Assembly: GCA_017429475.1 (NCBI GenBank)
Contig: JAFROX010000003.1
Span: 1 to 61,410, forward strand
Reading direction: 5' to 3'
DNA length: 61,410 nucleotides
DNA from: Bacteroidales bacterium
Lineage (GTDB): Bacteria; Bacteroidota; Bacteroidia; Bacteroidales; UBA932
Made by a program: the position numbers and the translations under genes. Below are positions 12,432 through 61,159 of this stretch, piece by piece; positions within the stretch are counted from its first letter, which is position 1, and each line of letters opens with the position of its first letter. Under the pieces are notes generated by a model. It saw only the letters and a list, made by a program, of their open reading frames with translations, made no database searches and was not told where the DNA came from.

Positions 12432-12476
12432 ATGATCCGCGGACTTCATATGCACCACCATCACCATATCGACTGA
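12432..12476 (+). CDS. hisL: Histidine-operon leader peptide
   Basis: A 14-codon frame encodes MIRGLHMHHHHHID followed by TGA. Six of fourteen residues are His, five of them consecutive, which is the signature of a his attenuator leader. It lies between the operon promoter and a Rho-independent terminator, 98 bp before hisG. By analogy with enterobacterial hisL, ribosome stalling at the His codons when charged tRNA-His is scarce would favour an antiterminator. Here the 10 bases right after the stop codon (12478-12487) pair without interruption, allowing G-U, with 12522-12531, the 5' arm of the terminator. That is the geometry the mechanism needs. Translation itself is not demonstrated. Confidence 0.88.
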   Translation: MIRGLHMHHHHHID

Positions 12477-12517: not shown

Positions 12518-12550
12518 AAAAGCCTGCTCTTCCATTGAGTAGGCTTTTTT
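12518..12550 (+). terminator. Histidine attenuator terminator
   Basis: Stem AAAAGCCTGCTC (12518-12529) pairs with GAGTAGGCTTTT (12537-12548) through a 7-nt loop, with one G-U pair, and runs into a T6 tract (12545-12550). Its 5' arm can instead pair with 12478-12487 directly after the leader stop, forming the competing antiterminator. It ends 24 bp before hisG. Confidence 0.9.
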
Positions 12551-51154: not shown

Positions 51155-52708
51155 ATGGAGAAAGAACTGATAGTAGACGTCAGAGAGGATGTGATAAACA
51201 TGGCACTGCTCGAAAACCATCGACTGATGGAGTACAGCAGCGAGACTCTCAAGGGCAAGAAATATTCTGTGGGCGACGTCTACATCGGAAGGGTAAAGAA
51301 GCTTCTGCCGTCCCTCAATGCTGCATTCGTCGATATAGGGGACAGCAAGGATGCGTTCATCCACTATCTTGACCTGGGCTTGAACTTCAAGGCCTTCGAC
51401 CGTTTCGTGCAGCAGATCGACAAGCGGGTTTCTGACACGAAGGCTTTCTACCGGAAATTCCGCAACGACGAAGTCCTGCCCAAGGACGGCAAGATAGACG
51501 AATACCTGACGGTCGGAATGCCGATTATGGTGCAGATCGTCAAGGAACCTATTTCAACCAAGGGATCCCGACTGACCTCCGAGATCTCGATAGCGGGAAG
51601 GAACATGGTGCTCCTGCCTTTCAACGATAAGGTCAGCATCTCCCAGAAAATCACTTCCAAGACAGAGAAAAAACGTCTCGAGCGTCTGGTTTACAGCATC
51701 CTGCCCGACAATTACGGTGTGATTATCCGCACCGCTGCCGAAGGCAAGAGGGCTGCCGTGCTGGATGCCGAACTGCGCAGCCTGGTCGAGAAGTGGGAAA
51801 GCTCCTGGGAGAAGATGAAGGCTTCGAAGGCCGTAAGCCGGCTGTTCACGGAGAACAACCGCGTCACCACGATTCTCCGCGACCTTCTCAACGACTCGTT
51901 CAACAACATCTATGCGAATGACGAGTCGATCTGCAACGAGATACACGACTACATTTCCCTGATCTCTCCCGAGCAGGAGAAGATAGTCCATTACTACGAT
52001 TCCAAGACTCCGATTTTCGACCATTTCGACATCACCAGGCAGATCAAAGGGTCTTTCGGCAAGGTCGTGTCGATGAAGAAAGGCACCTATCTTGTCATCG
52101 AGCACACCGAGGCCCTGCACGTGATCGACGTCAACAGCGGCATCCGCCACACACAGGTCAACCAGGAGGAGAATGCCCTCGAAGTCAACCTTTTCGCTGC
52201 CGAGGAAATAGCCAGGCAGATGCGGCTTCGCGATATGGGTGGAATCGTGATCGTCGATTTCATCGATATGAATTCGGCCGAACACCGCAATGAACTCTAT
52301 CTGAAGATGCAGGAGTTCATGGCTTCCGACCGTGCCAAGCATACCGTGCTTCCTCTCACCAAGTTCGGCTTGATGCAGATCACCAGGATGAGGGTGCGTC
52401 CCGTCACCGAGATCGACACCAGCGAAGTCTGCCCGGCCTGCCACGGAACAGGCCACGTGGCTTCAACCCTGGTGTTCGACCAACAGCTTGAGAACCAGCT
52501 TGAGATGCTGGTGAGGGACCGCGGCTACAGGCAGCTTCAGCTCACGGTAAGCCCCGTGATGCACGCCTATCTTACAAAAGGCATAAACAGCATCCGCCGC
52601 CGCTGGTCAAGGAAATACGGATGCTCTCTCAAGGTCTTGGCGGACAGTGAGATGCATCTTATCGACCAAAACTGGGCTGACGGCAAGGGCTTGGATATCA
52701 CCCTCTAG
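51155..52708 (+). CDS. rng: Ribonuclease E/G family protein
   Basis: A 517-residue endoribonuclease of the RNase G length class (no long C-terminal scaffold). The order is an S1 RNA-binding domain (about 35-125, VGDVYIGRVKKLLPSLNAAFVDIG), a 5'-sensor region, a DNase I-like catalytic domain with HVIDVNSG and IVIVDFIDM metal ligands, and the zinc-link CPACHGTG (about 428-435). It acts in mRNA decay and rRNA processing. Its last 11 bp overlap the convergent argH end, so the two genes share their 3' boundary. Confidence 0.95.
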   Translation: MEKELIVDVREDVINMALLENHRLMEYSSETLKGKKYSVGDVYIGRVKKLLPSLNAAFVDIGDSKDAFIHYLDLGLNFKAFDRFVQQIDKRVSDTKAFYRKFRNDEVLPKDGKIDEYLTVGMPIMVQIVKEPISTKGSRLTSEISIAGRNMVLLPFNDKVSISQKITSKTEKKRLERLVYSILPDNYGVIIRTAAEGKRAAVLDAELRSLVEKWESSWEKMKASKAVSRLFTENNRVTTILRDLLNDSFNNIYANDESICNEIHDYISLISPEQEKIVHYYDSKTPIFDHFDITRQIKGSFGKVVSMKKGTYLVIEHTEALHVIDVNSGIRHTQVNQEENALEVNLFAAEEIARQMRLRDMGGIVIVDFIDMNSAEHRNELYLKMQEFMASDRAKHTVLPLTKFGLMQITRMRVRPVTEIDTSEVCPACHGTGHVASTLVFDQQLENQLEMLVRDRGYRQLQLTVSPVMHAYLTKGINSIRRRWSRKYGCSLKVLADSEMHLIDQNWADGKGLDITL

Positions 52709-54005
52709 CCGCCTTTTCCATCTTTTCCTTTATTTCTTCAGTGCAAAGATTTCCCATACTGCCTTCGTGGGTATGGGCAAGTTCTGATGCTGAGGCGGGC
52801 TTGTCGAAAGAGAAGCGGCCTTCCTGGACGGCTATTCCGACCTCCCTGTAGGCGTCCCTGAACGGAACTCCCGAAACGACCTTGTTGTTGACCACTTCCA
52901 CGGTGAACATCGGGTCGTACTTGCTGTCCTGGTCGAGGATGTGCTCGTTAACGCTGATATGCTCAAGCATATATGAAGTCATCCTGAGGCAGGAGTGCAT
53001 CAGTTCGAATGCGGGGAAGAGGATGTCCTTCAGCAACTGGTAGTCCCTGTGGTAGCCGTGGGGCTGATTTGTGGTAAGCAGGGCTATCTCGTTCTGCACG
53101 CTCTGCAGCCGGTTGGTCTTGGCACGAACCATCTCCCATACGTCAGGATTCTTCTTGTGAGGCATAATGCTGCTTCCTGTTGTCAGCGAATCCGGGAAAG
53201 AGATGAACTTGAAATTGGTGCACATATACATACAGCAGTCTGCAGCGAACTTGTTGAGAGTGCTGCTGACGGCGGCCAGTGCGGCTGCAACGGCTTTTTC
53301 TGCCTTTGACCGGCTCATCTGTGCCGCTATGGAATTATAGTGCAGGTCGCCGAAATGCAGCAGACGGGTCGTCATCTTCCTGTCGAGAGGAAATGAACTG
53401 CCATAGCCAGCGGCAGAGCCGAGAGGGTTCTGGTCCACTATCTTGCGTGCGGCGCGGATCATAACCATATCGTCGGCGAGGGTTTCGGCATAAGCACCGA
53501 ACCACAGACCGAATGACGAAGGCATTGCCACTTGAGCGTGGGTGTACCCGGGAAGCAGAACTTCCTTGTGGCGCTCGCTAAGCTCCTGATACTGTGCGAA
53601 GAGAGTCTTGACTTCCTCTGCCAGGCTGTCGAGCTCGTCGCGCATATAGAGTTTCAGGTCCACCAGGACCTGATCGTTGCGGCTGCGGCCGGAATGGATC
53701 TTCTTGCCAATGTCTCCGAGCTTGCGGGTCAGCAGTATCTCTATCTGGGAATGAATGTCCTCAGCCTCGTCTTCCATCACGAAACGTCCTGCTTCTATCT
53801 GCCCAAGTATGTTGTCGAGCTCCTTCTGAAGGATCTGCTCTTCGTCCTTCTTGAGAAGGCCGACCTCTGCCAGCATTGCAATATGAGCCTTGGAGCCAAG
53901 CACATCGTATTTGGCAAGCTTGAGGTCAAGTTCGCGGTCGTTTCCGACAGTGAAATCTTCTACTATCTGTGTGGCTGAAACACCTTTATTCCAAAGAGTC
54001 TGCAT
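52698..54005 (-). CDS. argH: Argininosuccinate lyase
   Basis: Last enzyme of arginine synthesis, splitting argininosuccinate into arginine and fumarate. A 435-residue fumarase/aspartase-superfamily enzyme with the signature TGSSIMPHKKNPDVWE and SGRSRNDQV. It is the last gene of the minus-strand arginine operon; 1 bp overlaps argE (TAATG-type junction). It ends overlapping rng by 11 bp in opposite orientation. Confidence 0.97.
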   Translation of the reverse strand: MQTLWNKGVSATQIVEDFTVGNDRELDLKLAKYDVLGSKAHIAMLAEVGLLKKDEEQILQKELDNILGQIEAGRFVMEDEAEDIHSQIEILLTRKLGDIGKKIHSGRSRNDQVLVDLKLYMRDELDSLAEEVKTLFAQYQELSERHKEVLLPGYTHAQVAMPSSFGLWFGAYAETLADDMVMIRAARKIVDQNPLGSAAGYGSSFPLDRKMTTRLLHFGDLHYNSIAAQMSRSKAEKAVAAALAAVSSTLNKFAADCCMYMCTNFKFISFPDSLTTGSSIMPHKKNPDVWEMVRAKTNRLQSVQNEIALLTTNQPHGYHRDYQLLKDILFPAFELMHSCLRMTSYMLEHISVNEHILDQDSKYDPMFTVEVVNNKVVSGVPFRDAYREVGIAVQEGRFSFDKPASASELAHTHEGSMGNLCTEEIKEKMEKAARG

Positions 54006-55084
54006 TATAACTGTATGTTAGATATGAATTCGATATAATTCTTCAGGCCTTCGGCAATTTCGTCGCGGTAGACGAACTCGTCGGCCTTGTGGGAGCGGTT
54101 GCTGTCTCCCGGACCCATCTTGACTGCGGGGATTGACAGCCTCATCCAGTCAGAGGTAGTGGGGGATACGTAGGTCTCCACTCCAAGTTTTTCCGCAGTC
54201 TTGAGGAGAGGATGACCCTGAGGAGTCGCAGAAGCGTGGTTAAGCATATTGCGCGCTTTCAGACTGCACTGTGGAGCAGCATCTCCGAGAAGTTTCATCA
54301 CCTCTTCGTTGGTATAGCTGTCGGTGGTGCGGATGTCGATGACGAAGCTGCACGAGTCGGGGATGACGTTATGCGCGGTTCCTGCATTGATTTGTGTCAC
54401 ATTCAGCCTGGTGTGGCCCATTGAGGGCGATATCCTGCTGAATTCCAGGCTCTGCAGTGCGTTTATGGCTTCGACAGCCTTGTAAATGGCATTGACTCCG
54501 AGAGCTGCGTGCGCACAATGTGCGCTGACGCCTTCGCAAACGGCATCTACTACGAGCAGGCCTTTCTCAGCAATGGCGGCTTTCATTTCCGTCGGTTCGC
54601 CTACGATGGCGAAATCGGCTTCTCTCTCTACGATGCGCCTCAGCATCCGCATTCCGTTTTCTCCGGAACGCTCTTCTTCACAGCTCAGGGCCAGCATCAG
54701 GTTGACTGGCAGATCCAGGCGCTCGCGCAAGGCGCGGATGAAGGTGAAAAGCAGGCAGACCACGCTCGCCCCGTCGTCGTTGCTGCCGAGCCCCAGGATC
54801 CTGTCCTTGTCGGCAGGAGGATTGACTGGGTCGAAGCTGTATCCAGCGGCTGCCGCAACAGTGTCTATATGGGCGTTGAGCATCAGCGTAGGTTTGCCGG
54901 GGTCTGCGGCAGGCTGTCTTGCCACAATGTTGTTGCCGTATCTTGTATGGTCGATGCCTTCGTTTCTCAGGAATGCGCACAGGAAATCAGCCCGCTTGCT
55001 CTCGTGGAAGCTTTCGGAAGGAATCGCTACCATTTCAGAGAGAAGCTTGCAGGCAGCTTCGCAATATTTGCCCATATCACTCAT
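54005..55084 (-). CDS. argE: M20-family deacylase, N-acyl-citrulline/ornithine type
   Basis: A 359-residue M20 metallohydrolase. Metal and catalytic residues are in LNAHIDTVAA (His, Asp), GLGSNDDGASV (bridging Asp) and SCEEERSGENG (general-base Glu), with EPTEMKAAIAEKG next. The position between argB and argH, together with the argF' upstream, predicts removal of the N-acyl group (acetyl or succinyl) from N-acylcitrulline rather than from N-acetylornithine. That is the route used in Bacteroides and Xanthomonas. Start ATG overlaps argB by 4 bp. Confidence 0.92.
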   Translation of the reverse strand: MSDMGKYCEAACKLLSEMVAIPSESFHESKRADFLCAFLRNEGIDHTRYGNNIVARQPAADPGKPTLMLNAHIDTVAAAAGYSFDPVNPPADKDRILGLGSNDDGASVVCLLFTFIRALRERLDLPVNLMLALSCEEERSGENGMRMLRRIVEREADFAIVGEPTEMKAAIAEKGLLVVDAVCEGVSAHCAHAALGVNAIYKAVEAINALQSLEFSRISPSMGHTRLNVTQINAGTAHNVIPDSCSFVIDIRTTDSYTNEEVMKLLGDAAPQCSLKARNMLNHASATPQGHPLLKTAEKLGVETYVSPTTSDWMRLSIPAVKMGPGDSNRSHKADEFVYRDEIAEGLKNYIEFISNIQL

Positions 55085-55848
55085 CCTATTACGGTACCTA
55101 TGGATTTGCCGAGATTGGCAGAGTTCTTAATTATGACCTTATGTACGCCGGCGCTTATGGCTGAGAATGCATTTTCCAGTTTGGGAATCATTCCGGCTGA
55201 GATGGCGCCGGTGGCTTTCATCTCTTCGAATCCAGCCCTGTCTATCTGGGGAATTACGCTGTCTTCGTCTGCAGGGTCGGCAAGGACTCCGTTCTTTTCG
55301 AAGCAGAAGGTGAGGTTGACCTTGCGCACGGACGCCATTGCCTTTGCCACGCTTGAAGCGATCGTGTCTGCATTGGTGTTGAGAAGCGTGCCTTTACGGT
55401 CGTGGGTCACTGCACACAACACCGGAGTGATGCCCTGGTCAAGCAGCATCTCGAGGAACTTGACGTCCACGGATCTCACATCGCCGACGAAACCGTAATC
55501 GACAGGTTCCTTGGGACGGATGACTGATTCTATCACCCCTCCATCAGCGCCTGAAAGGCCGACAGCGTTGCATCCTCTGGCCTGGAGCTTTGCCACGATG
55601 GACTTGTTGAGCCATCCTGCATATACTGACACTGCAACCTTGAGGGTTTCCGCGTCGGTAATCCTGCGGCCGTCTATCATTTTCGGCTCGATACCAAGCC
55701 GGCGCAGTGTCTGGCTGGCCATCACGCCGCCGCCGTGCACCAGTATCTTCTCCTTGGGCAATGACACGAAGTCGTCGAGGAAAGATTCCAGGGCCTGGGG
55801 GTCATCCACGACGTTGCCTCCGATCTTTATGACTGAAAGCGAATTCAT
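55081..55848 (-). CDS. argB: N-acyl-glutamate kinase
   Basis: A 255-residue amino-acid kinase phosphorylating N-acylglutamate. It has KIGGNVVDD (Lys near 8), VHGGG (phosphate loop), GLSGADGG and NADTIASSVAKAM, as in ArgB. Whether the substrate is acetyl- or succinylglutamate follows from the rest of the pathway and cannot be read from this gene alone. It overlaps argE by ATGA and argF' by one base. Confidence 0.95.
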   Translation of the reverse strand: MNSLSVIKIGGNVVDDPQALESFLDDFVSLPKEKILVHGGGVMASQTLRRLGIEPKMIDGRRITDAETLKVAVSVYAGWLNKSIVAKLQARGCNAVGLSGADGGVIESVIRPKEPVDYGFVGDVRSVDVKFLEMLLDQGITPVLCAVTHDRKGTLLNTNADTIASSVAKAMASVRKVNLTFCFEKNGVLADPADEDSVIPQIDRAGFEEMKATGAISAGMIPKLENAFSAISAGVHKVIIKNSANLGKSIGTVIG

Positions 55849-56801
55849 TATAACGATTTAAGTACTTCCTTGATAACTGTCTGGGCGCTGATCTCCCTGT
55901 TGGCCGCTTCCGGAATCACAAGGCTCTGGGGCGACTCGATGACATCGTCGCTGACTATCATTCCCCTGCGCACGGGAAGGCAGTGCATAAAGAATGCATT
56001 GTCCGTGAGGGCCATCTTTTCGGTCGTCACCGTCCAGCTGCGGTCGGTCGAGAGTATCTCACCGTAGTGAGGTTCCTTGCAGGCTGACCAGTTCTTCGCG
56101 TATACGAAATCCGCTCCCTTGAAGGCTTTGTCCTGGTCATACTCCACAACTGCGTTGCCGACGAATTCGGGCTCCAGTTCATATCCTTCCGGATGGGTTA
56201 TTACGAGCTCGTATCCCGCAGCGTTCATCCATTGCGCGAATGAATTCGGAACGGCCTGAGGAAGAGCCCTGGGGTGGGGAGCCCAGGTGAGCACGACTTT
56301 AGGCCTTGCTTTTTTCTTATGTTCCTCGATGGTGATGAGGTCGGCGAAGGCCTGCATCGGATGCACCGTGGCGCTTTCCATGCTTATCACAGGTTTCCCG
56401 GAGTAGTCCATGAACTGCCGCAGAATGGTCTCGCTGTAGTCGTATGCCTTGTCCTTGAGCCCGGCGAAGGAGCGTACTCCGATCACGTCGCAGTAGTTGC
56501 CCATCACGGGGATTGCTTCGAGGATGTGCTCGCTCTTGTCTCCGTCCATAATCACGCCGCGCTCTGTCTCTAGCTTCCACGCGCCCTGGTTGATGTCGAG
56601 CACGATGGTGTTCATCCCGAGGTTCATCGCGGCCTTCTGGGTGCTCAGCCTTGTTCTGAGGCTGGAGTTGAAGAACACCAGCAGCATTGTCCTGTTCTTG
56701 CCGAGCGCCTGGTCGGCGAAACGGTTCTGCTTTATGTATTTTGCCTGCTCAAGGGCGTATTCGATGCCCGGCAGGTCCTTGGGGCCCATAAATTGTCTCA
56801 T
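55848..56801 (-). CDS. argF': N-succinyl/N-acetyl-L-ornithine carbamoyltransferase
   Basis: A 317-residue transcarbamylase closely matching the Bacteroides N-succinylornithine carbamoyltransferase rather than classical ArgF. The carbamoyl-phosphate site is FFNSSLRTRLSTQ (43-55), Trp75 lies in INQGAWKLETERG, and HCLPVRRGM is near the C-terminus. In characterised enzymes one residue, as I recall Pro90 in succinyl- and Glu in acetyl-specific forms, sets the acyl preference. The aligned position here reads DKSEH, that is Ser90, so specificity is open. It forms N-acylcitrulline in this operon. Confidence 0.95.
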   Translation of the reverse strand: MRQFMGPKDLPGIEYALEQAKYIKQNRFADQALGKNRTMLLVFFNSSLRTRLSTQKAAMNLGMNTIVLDINQGAWKLETERGVIMDGDKSEHILEAIPVMGNYCDVIGVRSFAGLKDKAYDYSETILRQFMDYSGKPVISMESATVHPMQAFADLITIEEHKKKARPKVVLTWAPHPRALPQAVPNSFAQWMNAAGYELVITHPEGYELEPEFVGNAVVEYDQDKAFKGADFVYAKNWSACKEPHYGEILSTDRSWTVTTEKMALTDNAFFMHCLPVRRGMIVSDDVIESPQSLVIPEAANREISAQTVIKEVLKSL

Positions 56802-57922
56802 AACGTAAGAGTGTTGAATGCTTCGAGGAAACTGTCGGCATCCTCGCGGGTTATCATCAGGGGCGGAAGAAGTCTTATGACGTTCTTTCCGGCGCCTCCT
56901 GTAAAAATGTGTTTTTCAAATAGCAGACGGTCGCGGAGGTCGAGCCATTCCTCACCGAGTTCTATGCCTATCATCAGGCCCTTTCCTCTCAGTTCCTTGA
57001 TGGCCTTGTTGCCTTTGAGTCCATCCAGAAGATATTGTCCTACGGTCGCCGCATTATCCACAAGCTTTTCCTGCTGCATCACCTTCAGAACTGCGATGGC
57101 TGCAGTGCAGGCCAGATGGTTGCCGCCGAAGGTAGTGCCGAGCATACCGTAGCGCGCCTCGATCTTGTCGGAAAGAAGGACCGCTCCGATAGGGAAGCCG
57201 TTGCCCATGCCTTTGGCGACAGTTATGATGTCGGCTTCGATACCTGCATACTGATGGGCGAAGAAGCGGCCGCTGCGTCCGTAGCCGCTCTGGATCTCGT
57301 CGGCAATAAGCAGGGTTCCGGTCTTGTCGCAGGCTTCGCGCGCTGCTCTCCAGAATTCAAATGAAGGCTCGTAGATGCCGGCTACACCCTGTATGCCTTC
57401 CATTATCAGGGCGGCATATTCACCGCTTGCAAGATGGATTTTCAACGAATCGATGTCGTTCAGTGGAGTGAAGGTGACATTGTCGGTTTTGTTGAATGCA
57501 GACTGGATGGCAGGGTTGTCGGTGGCTGCCACTGCACCGCTGGTGCGGCCGTGGAATGCCTTGCCTATGGCCAGGATTTTCTTGCGTCCGGTGTGGAACG
57601 ATGCAGCCTTGAATGCATTCTCGTTAGCTTCGGCTCCGCTGTTGCAGAGGAAGAGAGAATGTCTTGCGTAACCGCACTGTTCTCCGAGATTGCGGGCCAG
57701 CTCCACCTGAAGCGAGTTTTCCACGGCATTTGAGTAGAAACCCAGCTGTGTCAACTGTTTCTCCATCATCTCTACATAGACTGGATGGCAGTGTCCGATG
57801 GAAATGACTGCGTGGCCTCCGTAAAGGTCCAGATACTGCGTGCCTTCCTTGTCCCATACATAGCATCCTCTGCCACGCACAGGCTCGATGGGCCACAGCT
57901 TATATGTCTTGAAAAGTTCCAT
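56798..57922 (-). CDS. argD: N-acyl-ornithine aminotransferase
   Basis: A 374-residue class III PLP aminotransferase converting N-acylglutamate semialdehyde to N-acylornithine. Recognised by YLDLYGGHAVISIGHCHP, LFLCNSGAEANENAFKAA, LLIADEIQSGYGRSG and ITVAKGMGNGFPIGAVL (Schiff-base Lys about residue 234). It overlaps argF' by 4 bp and argC by one base. Confidence 0.96.
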   Translation of the reverse strand: MELFKTYKLWPIEPVRGRGCYVWDKEGTQYLDLYGGHAVISIGHCHPVYVEMMEKQLTQLGFYSNAVENSLQVELARNLGEQCGYARHSLFLCNSGAEANENAFKAASFHTGRKKILAIGKAFHGRTSGAVAATDNPAIQSAFNKTDNVTFTPLNDIDSLKIHLASGEYAALIMEGIQGVAGIYEPSFEFWRAAREACDKTGTLLIADEIQSGYGRSGRFFAHQYAGIEADIITVAKGMGNGFPIGAVLLSDKIEARYGMLGTTFGGNHLACTAAIAVLKVMQQEKLVDNAATVGQYLLDGLKGNKAIKELRGKGLMIGIELGEEWLDLRDRLLFEKHIFTGGAGKNVIRLLPPLMITREDADSFLEAFNTLTL

Positions 57923-58890
57923 TAGTAGTAATTCGCTTTGAACTTGAGTCCGGCCGTCCTTTCCAGACCGAACATAAGGTTCATGTTTTCAACTGCCTGG
58001 CCGCTGGCTCCCTTGGTGAGGTTGTCGATTATCGACGTCACGTGAGCATAGCCGTTGTGGCTATCGACGTGAAGCAGGCACTTGTTCGTTCCCACCACTT
58101 CTTTCAGGTTGACGGGTTCGTCGCTGACGAAGACGAAGGGGGAGTCGCTGTAATAGTTCTTGTATAATTCGGCAAGTCCTTCAACATCCATCCCGCATTT
58201 TGTATATACGCTGGCGAAGATGCCGCGGGTGAAGTCACCCCTCATAGGCACGAAGTTCACCTGGGGGCAGTCGCCGCCAAGGATTCCGAGGGTCTGGAGG
58301 ATTTCTGCCAGATGCTGGTGGGTGAAGGGCTTATAGACCGAGATGTTGTCGTTGCGGTAGCTGAAATGGGTGGTTTCGGAAAGTTTCCTTCCGGCTCCGG
58401 TGGAGCCTGTTATTGCCGTCACGTGCACTTCGTCCTTCAGCAGATGCATCGCAGCCAGGGGCACTGTGGCCAGCTGTATGCAGGTGGCGAAGCAGCCGGG
58501 GTTGGCAACGCAGTCGCAGCCGCTGATCTGGTCCTTGAAGACGTCGGTCAGGCCATAAACGAAATGCAGACCCTTGTAGTCCGGCTCTGTGCGGAAATCA
58601 TTTCCGAGGTCGATGATCCTGCAGCCTTCCGGAAGTTCGTGGGTGTCGAGGAATTCTCGTGAAAGACCGTGTCCGAGGCAGAGGAAAATGACATCTTCAT
58701 TGCCGCTCAGCTTGTCGGTGAAGGCCAGGTCGGTCTCGCCAAGCAGATCGCGATGGAAACTGGTGACAGGCTTGCCTGCACTCGTGGTGCTGAGCACATC
58801 CGTCACTTCCACCTCGGGATGGCGTATCAGTATCCTGAGCAGCTCGCCTGCAGTATAGCCGGTGCCGCCTGCTATGGCTGCCCTTATCAT
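57922..58890 (-). CDS. argC: N-acyl-gamma-glutamyl-phosphate reductase
   Basis: A 322-residue NADPH-dependent reductase. AAIAGGTGYTAGELLRIL binds the nucleotide, CVANPGCFATCIQLAT holds the catalytic Cys, and FVPMRGDFTRGIFASVY is near the catalytic His. It overlaps argG by 4 bp (ATGA), continuing the tightly packed operon. Confidence 0.97.
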   Translation of the reverse strand: MIRAAIAGGTGYTAGELLRILIRHPEVEVTDVLSTTSAGKPVTSFHRDLLGETDLAFTDKLSGNEDVIFLCLGHGLSREFLDTHELPEGCRIIDLGNDFRTEPDYKGLHFVYGLTDVFKDQISGCDCVANPGCFATCIQLATVPLAAMHLLKDEVHVTAITGSTGAGRKLSETTHFSYRNDNISVYKPFTHQHLAEILQTLGILGGDCPQVNFVPMRGDFTRGIFASVYTKCGMDVEGLAELYKNYYSDSPFVFVSDEPVNLKEVVGTNKCLLHVDSHNGYAHVTSIIDNLTKGASGQAVENMNLMFGLERTAGLKFKANYY

Positions 58891-60092
58891 ATCATTTCGT
58901 CTTTATGGTTGCCGTAGTATACGCGGAGAGGGGTGGAGGTCACCTTGATGAAACCCTTGGCATCCTCTGCAGTCCATCCTTTCTGGGTTTCTCCGTATTC
59001 TCCGAGTTTTGACTTCACGAGGTCGTCGGGCGAATCGACACCGACGGTCGAGAATCCGTAAGGCCTCAGCTCGAGGGTTACGGTTCCGTTGACGTTGCGC
59101 TGGCTGCTCTCGAGCATCGCCTCGATGTCCCTCATCACAGGCTCCAGATATTGGCTCTCGTGCAGGAACATTCCATACCAGTTGGCAACCTGGTCTTTCC
59201 AGTACTGCTGCCATTTGCTGAGGGTGAACTTCTCGAGGAACTTGTGGGCTCCGATTATCAGCATAGGGGCTGCGGCTTCGAAACCTACGCGGCCTTTGAT
59301 GCCGATGATGGTGTCGCCGACGTGCATGTCGCGGCCGATGCCGTATGCCGCACCGATCTCTTCGACGGCCTGGATTGCGGCTATCTTGTCGTCAAAATGC
59401 TTTCCGTTGACACCGCACAGCTCTCCGTGCTTGAATTCCAGGCTCAGGATTTCGCTTCCCTTCTTGCTAACCTGTTTGAGATATGCCGATTCGGGAAGGC
59501 CCTGCTTGCTGTCGAGGATTTCGCCGCCGCAGATCGACGTTCCCCAGATGCCTACGTTGTAGGAATATTTAAGTTTCGCAAAGTCTGCATTGAAGCCGTT
59601 TGCGTTCAGATAGTCAACCTCGTCCTTGCGGGAGAGGTTGCCGTCGCGGGTGAGGGTTATGATCTCCATGCCAGGACACATAACCAGGAAGGTCATGTCG
59701 AAACGCACCTGGTCGTTGCCGGCACCGGTCGATCCGTGGGCTATGGCATCAGCTCCAATCTCACGGGCATATTTAGCAATGGCCATTCCCTGGAAGATTC
59801 GCTCGGATGATACGCTTATAGGATATGTGCCGTTGCGCAGCACATTGCCCCATACCATATACTTCAGGCTCTTGTCATAATATTCTTTGGTAACATCAAG
59901 CGTCACATATTTAGTGGCGCCGAGCTTGTAGGCGTTCTCTTCGTTTGTCCTGAGCTGCTGCTCGCTGAATCCGCCGGTGTTGGCGCAAGCCGCATGCACC
60001 TCGAATCCTTTTTCCTTGGCGAGGTACATCACCGTGTAAGATGTATCCAGTCCGCCGCTGAACGCTACTACTACTTTTTTCTTCTTTTCCAT
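58887..60092 (-). CDS. argG: Argininosuccinate synthase
   Basis: A 401-residue enzyme joining citrulline and aspartate with ATP. The ATP loop is VVAFSGGLDTSYTV (about 8-21), and HGSTGAGNDQVRFDMTF and IAAIQAVEEIGAAYGIGRDMHVGDTIIGIKGRVG are typical ArgG segments. It is second in the operon, 11 bp after the GNAT gene. Confidence 0.97.
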   Translation of the reverse strand: MEKKKKVVVAFSGGLDTSYTVMYLAKEKGFEVHAACANTGGFSEQQLRTNEENAYKLGATKYVTLDVTKEYYDKSLKYMVWGNVLRNGTYPISVSSERIFQGMAIAKYAREIGADAIAHGSTGAGNDQVRFDMTFLVMCPGMEIITLTRDGNLSRKDEVDYLNANGFNADFAKLKYSYNVGIWGTSICGGEILDSKQGLPESAYLKQVSKKGSEILSLEFKHGELCGVNGKHFDDKIAAIQAVEEIGAAYGIGRDMHVGDTIIGIKGRVGFEAAAPMLIIGAHKFLEKFTLSKWQQYWKDQVANWYGMFLHESQYLEPVMRDIEAMLESSQRNVNGTVTLELRPYGFSTVGVDSPDDLVKSKLGEYGETQKGWTAEDAKGFIKVTSTPLRVYYGNHKDEMI

Positions 60093-60103: not shown

Positions 60104-60658
60104 CTATTTGATGTCTATCTTGATGTGTTCCATAGGGTCATAGAGAAGGCCCGTGCAGAGGCATCTCTCGTAATTGTTGCGGGTGAGGATGTCGAAGTTC
60201 TTGCATCCTTCGCAGCCTTTCCAGAATTCTTCGTCGTCAGTCAGTTCGGAGAAGGTGACGGGCTTGAAGCCGAGTGCGGTGTTGATCTTCATCACGGCGA
60301 GGCCTGTGGTGATGCTGAAGATCTTGGCATCGGGATAGAGTTCCCTCGACAGGCGGAAGATGCGCTCCTTGATTTTGGAAGCAAGGCCTATCTTGCGGTA
60401 CTTGTGGTTGACGATGAGGCCTGAGTTGGCTACGAACTGCTTGTGGCCCCAGGTCTCGATGTATGAAAAGCCTGCGAATTCGCCTTCGTCAGTAAGGGCG
60501 ATTACGGCCTTGCCGGCGTTCATTTTCTCAATGATGTATTCGGGAGTACGGCGGGCGATGCCGGTGCCTCTTTCCTGGGCGGAAAGATATATCTCATCGC
60601 AAATCGCCTGTGCGTATTTTGCGTGGCTGCTGTCAGCCACAAATATTGATATATTCAT
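60104..60658 (-). CDS. GNAT-family acyltransferase, candidate N-acylglutamate synthase
   Basis: A 184-residue GNAT protein and the first gene of the arginine operon. The acyl-CoA segment is GLIVNHKYRKIGLASKIKERIFRL (about 81-104), and GEFAGFSYIETWGHKQFVANSG is the preceding beta sheet. A Cys-rich stretch near the C-terminus (GCEGCKNFDILTRNNYERCLCTG) might bind a metal. The operon has every other step from N-acylglutamate to arginine but no recognisable ArgA or ArgJ. The same position in Bacteroides operons makes this a good candidate for the missing first enzyme. The acyl donor is unknown. Confidence 0.88.
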   Translation of the reverse strand: MNISIFVADSSHAKYAQAICDEIYLSAQERGTGIARRTPEYIIEKMNAGKAVIALTDEGEFAGFSYIETWGHKQFVANSGLIVNHKYRKIGLASKIKERIFRLSRELYPDAKIFSITTGLAVMKINTALGFKPVTFSELTDDEEFWKGCEGCKNFDILTRNNYERCLCTGLLYDPMEHIKIDIK

Positions 60659-60723
60659 CTGATGTGAATAAATTGATAGTTATCGGAAATAGGGGGTGGG
60701 ATTCTGCTGTCCCGGGAGAATTG

Positions 60724-60749
60724 AAAAAAGCCTGTGCGAAACGCGAGCT
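60724..60749 (-). terminator. Candidate arginine attenuator terminator
   Basis: On the minus strand AGCT (60749-60746) pairs with GGCT (60732-60729, one G-U) and, beyond a small internal loop, GCG (60744-60742) pairs with CGC (60738-60736) around a TTT loop. A T6 run follows (60729-60724). The stem is shorter than the his one. Its 3' arm can instead pair with AAGCC overlapping the leader stop codon (60768-60764), a possible antiterminator. Confidence 0.6.
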
Positions 60750-60766
60750 GAAATCACGCCGCCGGC

Positions 60767-60820
60767 TTAACGTCGGACACGTCGTATCGCAATCGAAGGA
60801 TATGTGCATACTTTTTTCAT
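60767..60820 (-). CDS. Candidate arginine-operon leader peptide
   Basis: A 17-codon frame encoding MKKVCTYPSIAIRRVRR and ending TAA. Four of the last five codons are Arg (CGA, CGT, then CGA, CGT after one Val). It begins about 4-6 nt after the predicted transcription start of the arginine operon and ends just before a hairpin with a T6 tract, 109 bp upstream of the first structural gene. Position, Arg run and terminator together match a ribosome-mediated attenuator in which scarcity of charged tRNA-Arg stalls the ribosome. I know of no widely described bacterial arginine attenuator of this kind. Expression is not demonstrated, and chance occurrence of the Arg codons is the main alternative. 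Confidence 0.72.
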   Translation of the reverse strand: MKKVCTYPSIAIRRVRR

Positions 60821-60829
60821 AGACTGCCA

Positions 60830-60862
60830 CAAAGGTACAATAAATATTTATCATTCGCCAAA
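60830..60862 (-). promoter_or_regulatory. Promoter of the arginine operon
   Basis: On the minus strand TTTG (+ 60859-60862), 21 nt, then TACCTTTG (+ 60830-60837), a full consensus. Predicted start near 60824 leaves a leader of about 165 nt before the first gene, which holds the leader peptide and attenuator. Confidence 0.82.
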
Positions 60863-60877
60863 ATTTGATTTATCATT
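60846..60877. promoter_or_regulatory. Direct repeat ATTTATCATT x2 between divergent genes
   Basis: ATTTATCATT occurs at 60846-60855 and 60868-60877, 22 bp (about two helical turns) apart. One copy lies in the spacer of the arginine promoter, the other just upstream of its -33 box. This is a typical arrangement for a regulator binding one face of the DNA. Confidence 0.5.
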
Positions 60878-60916
60878 AAAAAAATGTATATTTACAATGA
60901 GAAATATCCCGCAATT

Positions 60917-61159
60917 TTGGCTAAGAAGAGAACATCCAGAAAGAAAAAGGATTCCGTTTCGGTCGACGCTCTGCGCGAACGGAAGGCCAAACTGCGCCGT
61001 ACCTATCGCAAGACCATCCTTTTCAATGACAAGGAGAAGGCCGCGATAGACGGATATTGCAAGAAATACGGCATCAAGTCGAAGTCCGCATTCATCCGCA
61101 ATGCGGTCATCAGCCATATCCTCGTCGATATGGATGAGAACTATCCGAGTCTTTTCTAA
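60917..61159 (+). CDS. Small basic protein, possibly ribbon-helix-helix DNA-binding
   Basis: A small, highly basic N-terminus (AKKRTSRKKKDSVSVDALRERKAKLRR) is followed by TYRKTILFNDKEKAAIDGYCKKYGIKSKSAFIRNAVISHIL. This fits a ribbon-helix-helix layout (one strand, then two helices, with KSAFIR as the usual turn). It ends DENYPSLF. The start is uncertain. An ATG at 60884 gives 91 residues but would overlap the putative -7 box TATATTTA (60887-60894, TTTG 19 nt upstream). A TTG at 60917 gives 80 residues and the natural opening AKKRTSRKKK. I list the shorter form. It faces the arginine operon across shared regulatory DNA, so a role in its control is conceivable. Confidence 0.65.
   Translation: MAKKRTSRKKKDSVSVDALRERKAKLRRTYRKTILFNDKEKAAIDGYCKKYGIKSKSAFIRNAVISHILVDMDENYPSLF

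Follow-up and report, generated by a model that had tools for sequence, protein, structure and literature searches.

Arginine operons are the textbook case of repressor control. The locus described here raises the question of how such an operon is regulated where the repressor was not found: no match to PF01316 (Pfam Arg_repressor) was obtained in the organism's own assembly (80% complete) or in those of 11 congeners, and 140 of the 149 genomes of the family (UBA932) were negative. A sequence-only reading of the window, i.e. the whole stretch of 61,410 nt analysed, had proposed that the operon is controlled through the translation of Arg codons in a short leader. The comparisons presented below make it likely that an Arg-codon leader peptide does control the operon, via the progress of its ribosome.

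The features of the locus are listed in Table 1. The promoter box, the 17-codon frame with four late Arg codons before TAA, the hairpin with its T6 tract and the eight-gene arginine operon named in that reading are all present. The leader ATG, at 60820, lies 9 nt past the promoter box, the stop codon occupies 60769–60767, and the frame closes with the codons CGA CGT GTC CGA CGT. A G-poor spacer and hairpin 2 are situated between hairpin B and the start of the GNAT gene (60658). An Rfam search with the window stretch and 20 loci gave no leader match at the gathering score, T-box included.

Table 1. Positions of the leader features and operon genes in the window
Feature	Position	Strand	Basis
Promoter box TACCTTTG, Bacteroidetes −7 type, predicted	60830..60837	-	Sequence
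Leader ORF MKKVCTYPSIAIRRVRR*, predicted near-leaderless start	60767..60820	-	Sequence and conservation
CATATC element	60799..60804	-	Near-fixed promoter distance, frame-independent
First Arg pair, codons CGA CGT	60779..60784	-	Sequence
Conserved control site GTC CGA CGT (Val-Arg-Arg)	60770..60778	-	NYC-CGA in-frame conservation
Hairpin B, 5′ arm over stop codon	60728..60768	-	Covarying inner helices, z-scores, pairing profile
T6 tract ending hairpin B; first two T paired inside hairpin	60724..60729	-	Sequence
Hairpin 2, GGGA-CAGCAGAA-UCCC	60698..60713	-	Conserved loop, covarying stem
GNAT-family acetyltransferase, first operon gene	60104..60658	-	Named by resemblance
argG, argC, argD, N-acetylornithine carbamoyltransferase, argB, argE-like, argH	52698..60092	-	NCBIfam

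Asterisks in peptides denote stop codons. The genes are listed in operon order. The GNAT protein has no NCBIfam match, and some of the names given to the genes behind it, among which the argE-like gene encodes a deacylase, derive from matches below the curated cut-off. At the far end of the operon, argH faces a convergent gene on the opposite strand for a ribonuclease of the Rne/Rng family (51155–52708, +). A divergent 91-aa frame (60884–61159, +), for which no NCBIfam match was found, separates the arg promoter from an apparent start of a 16S rRNA gene where the contig ends.

Leader frame and its arginine codons

The GNAT gene was used as the anchor for the collection of loci. It is carried by 105 of 149 family genomes, 93 of 295 order genomes and 104 of 247 phylum genomes; 80 named loci were added. 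The family and named sets together gave 168 unique loci; duplicates were recognized from the 110 nt closest to the gene on its upstream side, and loci offering fewer than 110 nt of upstream sequence were excluded. Related species are present in all of the counts reported here, which are not independent.

A strict promoter rule was applied, requiring a TAnnTTTG box with an ATG 4–12 nt downstream. Such a pair was found in 105 of the 168 loci, and in most loci the ATG was 7–10 nt past the box. A YCCGA motif followed at a distance of up to 107 nt in 97 of the 105, and in every one of these (97/97) the first YCCGA was in frame with the ATG. The codon pair NYC-CGA was held by 97 of 104 promoter-proximal frames of 8–45 codons, as compared with a mean of 5.8 and a maximum of 11 in 200 dinucleotide shuffles. 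It is apparent from this comparison that the leader frame behaves as translated, its phase with the start being kept and its codons being under selection. An Arg-ended frame that is in phase with the promoter in many divergent species is beyond chance. Short frames are, of course, common, and a simple terminator scan of 60600–60950 called no terminators, hairpin B included, probably owing to internal loops in its stem. The idea that a chance short frame precedes an ordinary promoter-operon junction is nevertheless refuted by the conservation and by the comparisons with shuffles, and can be given practically no credence.

The peptide tails vary among loci (RVRR*, HVRRCA*, LVRRCF*, VRL*, LRIRRRA*), and some contain two Val-Arg sites. 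The residue following VR may be R, L, I, M, S, V, Q, E, G, C or P. Some leaders have merely one to three Arg codons. Within the same leaders the other Arg codons are variable and CGA is near-fixed; in 11 genes of the window CGA is the rarest Arg codon (6 of 193). Arg tRNAs with the anticodons ACG, TCT, CCT and CCG were seen in a tRNA scan, among the 30 loci fetched of 43 matches. Since the TCG anticodon was not found among those 30 loci, CGA is probably decoded by the ACG tRNA, an anticodon that reads CGA through inosine. Assays with the Salmonella his leader are reported to show that CGA is slower than CGU and CGC, which are read by the same tRNAs (PMC4046918).

Sensing by ribosomes that stall on these Arg codons is well supported by the comparative data, and stalling in the leader would probably signal arginine shortage to the cell. 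Peptides of the arrest type, such as TnaC, SpeFL and the fungal arginine attenuator peptide, offer a different reading, in which free arginine (or a drug) would act on a ribosome bearing a nascent (V/I)-R tail. The C-terminal hydrophobic-Arg pair is the conserved part of the peptide, and Arg-Leu-Arg motifs are described in antibiotic leader peptides (PMC8632094). Selection, however, is exerted on the codons (a C-ending codon plus CGA) and not on the residues alone: the remaining Arg codons are variable, many residues are tolerated behind VR, and other clades have different Arg codons and tails. Action through an arrest peptide is accordingly judged improbable.

A start so close to the promoter box would also be unusual, because short 5′ UTRs are rare in Bacteroides thetaiotaomicron. 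In that species the −7 element is reported to be centred 7 nt before the transcription start, and approximately 3.7% of 5′ UTRs to be shorter than 10 nt (PMC7366714).

A further element, CATATC, was found early in the leader. Among 82 representatives (118 leaders less those more than 80% identical, ungapped), CATAT was present in 46, against 8.0 in shuffles, and CATA in 64, mostly 24–26 nt past the promoter box. CATA falls in all three frames (33, 22 and 9 cases), and it is therefore no codon feature. The window contains 30 TAnnTTTG sites, and CATAT occurs at such spacing solely in the arg leader. The element may be a pause signal or another early signal. As a separate matter, TTTG-ATG-YCCGACG was considered as a genus-wide regulon motif and rejected; there were 56 matches in 13 genomes and 62 to the reversed pattern, i.e. 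no excess.

Hairpin B and the output of the leader

Folding was assessed for the 56 nt after CGA in the 82 representatives. The median z was −1.73, and 37 sequences had p<=0.05, as compared with three for a control stretch. In the pairing profile, with positions counted from the C of CGA, the 5′ arm spans +8 to +22 and the 3′ arm +29 to +47. Counted in the same way, the stop codon is at +12 in 40 representatives, at +6 in 34 and elsewhere in eight, and in 62 of the 82 hairpin B has its start between +4 and +13, the fold beginning at +4. In the window the hairpin (AAGCC...GGCTT, −15.3 kcal/mol) opens with the AA of the stop codon, and its 3′ end runs into the T6 tract. A hairpin near or over the leader stop codon is thus shown by comparison to be conserved.

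When the sequences of the genus were aligned, 99.1% of cells could pair, and six of the 18 pairs showed changes on both sides. Fifteen cells were changed on both sides, a number reached in none of 500 shuffles; further pair types, one of five measures, were not above shuffles (441/500). The changes are confined to the inner helices, which covary, and the AAGCC:GGCTT base is invariant. That same helix had been proposed as an antiterminator, an assignment that was rejected, as it forms the base of the very hairpin that carries T6. No mutually exclusive antiterminator common to the clades was found, and local candidates were seen in some of them.

The invariance of YCCGA at the nucleotide level, and its ability to sit in a small hairpin in several clades, might suggest an RNA or DNA motif (for pairing or as a protein site) that is in frame by coincidence. 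Against this, the motif was in frame without exception, the leader itself showed no general structure (median z −0.2, 82 representatives) and no partner pairing with YCCGA in all clades was seen by eye. Such a motif is considered a very remote prospect.

The data are most readily accommodated by a sensor that acts through ribosome position. With Arg-tRNA in short supply, the ribosome would wait at CGA and cover the base of hairpin B on its 5′ side, so that the hairpin would be blocked and the operon transcribed. With Arg-tRNA plentiful, the ribosome would pass and leave at the stop codon, hairpin B would form and expression would be cut. A ribosome covers approximately 13 nt ahead of its position, so that in the window one waiting at CGA would hold the base of hairpin B. 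In several Dysgonomonadaceae hairpin B starts further away, between CGA+18 and CGA+25, where a ribosome waiting at CGA would not reach it.

In the window, with its T6 tract, the cut would most simply be intrinsic termination near 60724. The terminator of the sequence-only reading is plausible for the window's species group and one relative, but a run of at least five T behind hairpin B was present in just four of 12 genus sequences. Terminator-like hairpins were found in 28 of 92 leaders and 47 of 276 shuffles (loci L009 and L035, which have no leader by the rule of this count, were left out). Intrinsic termination is not supported as a general property, since in most clades the frequency is close to that of the shuffles. 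Where relatives lack a U-run, hairpin B would have to act otherwise; because the U-run is mostly absent, Rho, RNase or pausing is left for most clades. The mode is therefore classed as a variant of ribosome-mediated attenuation, a general intrinsic terminator being unsupported outside a few groups.

A related possibility retains the same sensor with another output, in which hairpin B and its G-poor, C/U-rich tail would steer Rho termination or RNase processing. The 12 nt past hairpin B contain 8% G, 28% C and 39% T, and a T-run of at least four was found behind it in just 15 of the 82 representatives. Unlike the arg leaders, the his leaders of the genus keep a T4–T7 ending in all 11 readable loci of 12 (by eye; L277 was mis-anchored). 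Precedents are described in Salmonella, where the orf34-speF leader is reported to lack an intrinsic terminator and to work through two Arg codons together with Rho and RNase G (PMC6386406), and in mycobacteria, where cys leaders are reported as terminator-free with poly-Y motifs (PMC1262725). The T6 placed directly at the hairpin in the window group argues the other way, and this output, suggested by analogy, could well apply, although it falls a little short of being the favoured one.

The his leader of the window (MIRGLHMHHHHHID*, at 12433, +) precedes hisG, with a terminator at 12518–12548 made up of a hairpin and a T-run, and is a classical histidine attenuator. Similar his leaders were observed in other genomes of the genus.

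A different hairpin, GCAATTGACAATCnnGGTTTGTCTTGC, was observed between the leader and the first gene in nine loci (L017, L026, L029, L030, L099, L100, L103, L106 and L120). It is nearly invariant (T or C in ATTGAC/ATCGAC) and is present also in L016, L018 and L022, where no Arg leader was found.

Leader, ArgR and known systems

ArgR status in the family was assigned from PF01316 alone. Nine of 149 family genomes and 113 of 295 order genomes were positive. In eight of the nine family genomes argR is directly upstream of the GNAT homologue on the same contig, an adjacency seen likewise in many order genomes. The exception, G084 (L108, L209, L220), has two GNAT copies without a leader, one of them inside the leader clade of the GNAT tree, and argR on another contig.

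Leaders were scored by one rule in family and order loci. The 105 family loci do not include G007 and G073 of the 105 GNAT-bearing genomes, whereas G068 and G084 are each represented by two loci. For the order, the 47 loci are a non-random pick from the 93 GNAT-bearing genomes, consisting of the 27 best-scoring new loci and 20 chosen ones, of which half were from ArgR-free genomes and half were second copies or had argR elsewhere. A leader was found in 65 of the 105 family loci and one of the 47 order loci. All 66 belong to the 112 loci from ArgR-free genomes; among the 40 from ArgR-bearing genomes no leader was found. Three genera (g4, g15 and g22) include both states. In the GNAT tree (124 rows), the 20 rows whose fetched DNA includes argR form one clade (support 100/93), and the leader label requires seven changes, as compared with 41 in shuffles.

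The leader thus occupies the place of argR in relatives. The swap is imperfect, given loci with neither: by the same rule, 30 of 95 family loci from ArgR-free genomes and 16 order loci have no leader and no ArgR. Homologous operons without an Arg-rich frame, which the sequence-only reading had said would count against it, therefore exist in part. Its proposal of Arg-codon control is supported by the conserved leader where ArgR is missing; its antiterminator is unsupported. Since the leader stands where argR does in relatives, the exchange of a repressor for a codon sensor is directly testable. The leaders also constitute a natural data set on the choice of codons for sensing starvation, and they open attenuation to study in a phylum whose promoters and initiation are unusual.

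ArgR repression shares with the leader the position directly upstream of the same first gene in many ArgR-bearing relatives, and differs in being exerted by a protein repressor, which was not found in the genome of the window. Attenuation of the his/trp type has in common with the arg leader a short leader with end-product codons, a downstream hairpin and a biosynthetic operon. The arg leader differs in its amino acid, in its few control codons (one near-invariant and rare), in its near-leaderless start, in the mostly missing U-run and in that no clade-wide competing antiterminator was found. Salmonella orf34-speF resembles it in that two adjacent Arg codons are sensed by pausing, with a hairpin past the stop codon and a non-intrinsic output; it is described, however, as controlling ornithine decarboxylase, in another phylum, and Arg codon rarity is reported as irrelevant there (PMC6386406). 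In Staphylococcus rbfL, leader Arg codons also sense arginine supply, but control is reported to be translational, by blocking the ribosome binding site of a biofilm regulator (PMC13009471).

A literature search, confined to papers outside subscription, revealed no leader peptide for bacterial arginine biosynthesis except that of Pseudomonas carA. The P. aeruginosa leader likewise precedes an arginine/pyrimidine supply gene, but attenuation there is attributed to pyrimidines, and the phylum is different (PMC4997734). A 2021 Flavobacterium paper describes clues to leader attenuation before amino-acid operons generally, with arg unnamed in the passage concerned (PMC9723704).

Arginine-rich frames elsewhere in the phylum

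Short frames were scored as Arg-rich when their last 12 residues included RR and at least three Arg; 56 of 101 further phylum loci have one. The controls gave 10 on the antisense strand and a mean of 7.1 (maximum 11) in shuffles, and part of the 56, being short and far from the gene, are probably due to chance. This rule, which is looser than that used above for leaders, was satisfied by seven of 40 ArgR-bearing loci and by 58 of 112 ArgR-free family and order loci. In the phylum set, PF01316 matches over the cut-off in G479 (five 127-aa frames) and G502 (a 312-aa frame) were not counted as ArgR; in G502 the weak match occurs alongside an Arg-rich frame.

Recurring types were RRRP* (CGT CGC CCG TAA), AHRID...RIPRRR* (with CGG codons) and RRP...PRA* (CGA CGA). 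For 50 distinct phylum frames, folding after the stop codon was moderately stronger than in shuffles, with a median z of −1.2 and p<=0.05 in 15, as compared with 4 of 49 controls. In Chitinophaga, frames of the form ...NVFR(Y/F)L(S/L/A)RRPRI* contain NYC-CGA-(CGA/AGA) in 12 of 12 loci, and the hairpin at the stop codon has a median z of −1.5, with p<=0.05 in five of the 12; no conserved ATG start was found in these 12 loci.

These frames would be consistent with Arg-codon leaders running arginine synthesis without ArgR across the Bacteroidota, taking in UBA932 the form of a near-leaderless transcript with a C-ending codon plus CGA as a fixed, slowly read sensor, a CATATC element at a set distance from the promoter that pauses the polymerase to await the first ribosome, and a cutting hairpin free of a U-run. 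In its full extent, this generalization is tentative and rather unlikely to hold.

Other frames were observed upstream of GNAT in particular loci. In L252 and L259, which are ArgR-free and belong to another family, promoter-proximal frames end in ..SPRPGRG and ..SPRPALG, perhaps another Arg/Pro leader type. By eye, an open frame ending in SLNRRESRR* (AAC CGA CGG GAA AGC CGG CGG TAA) precedes GNAT in the ArgR-free loci L232, L239 and L249, and a conserved ..TSPEVRML*, possibly a further leader type, lies approximately 260 nt before GNAT in L319 and L336.
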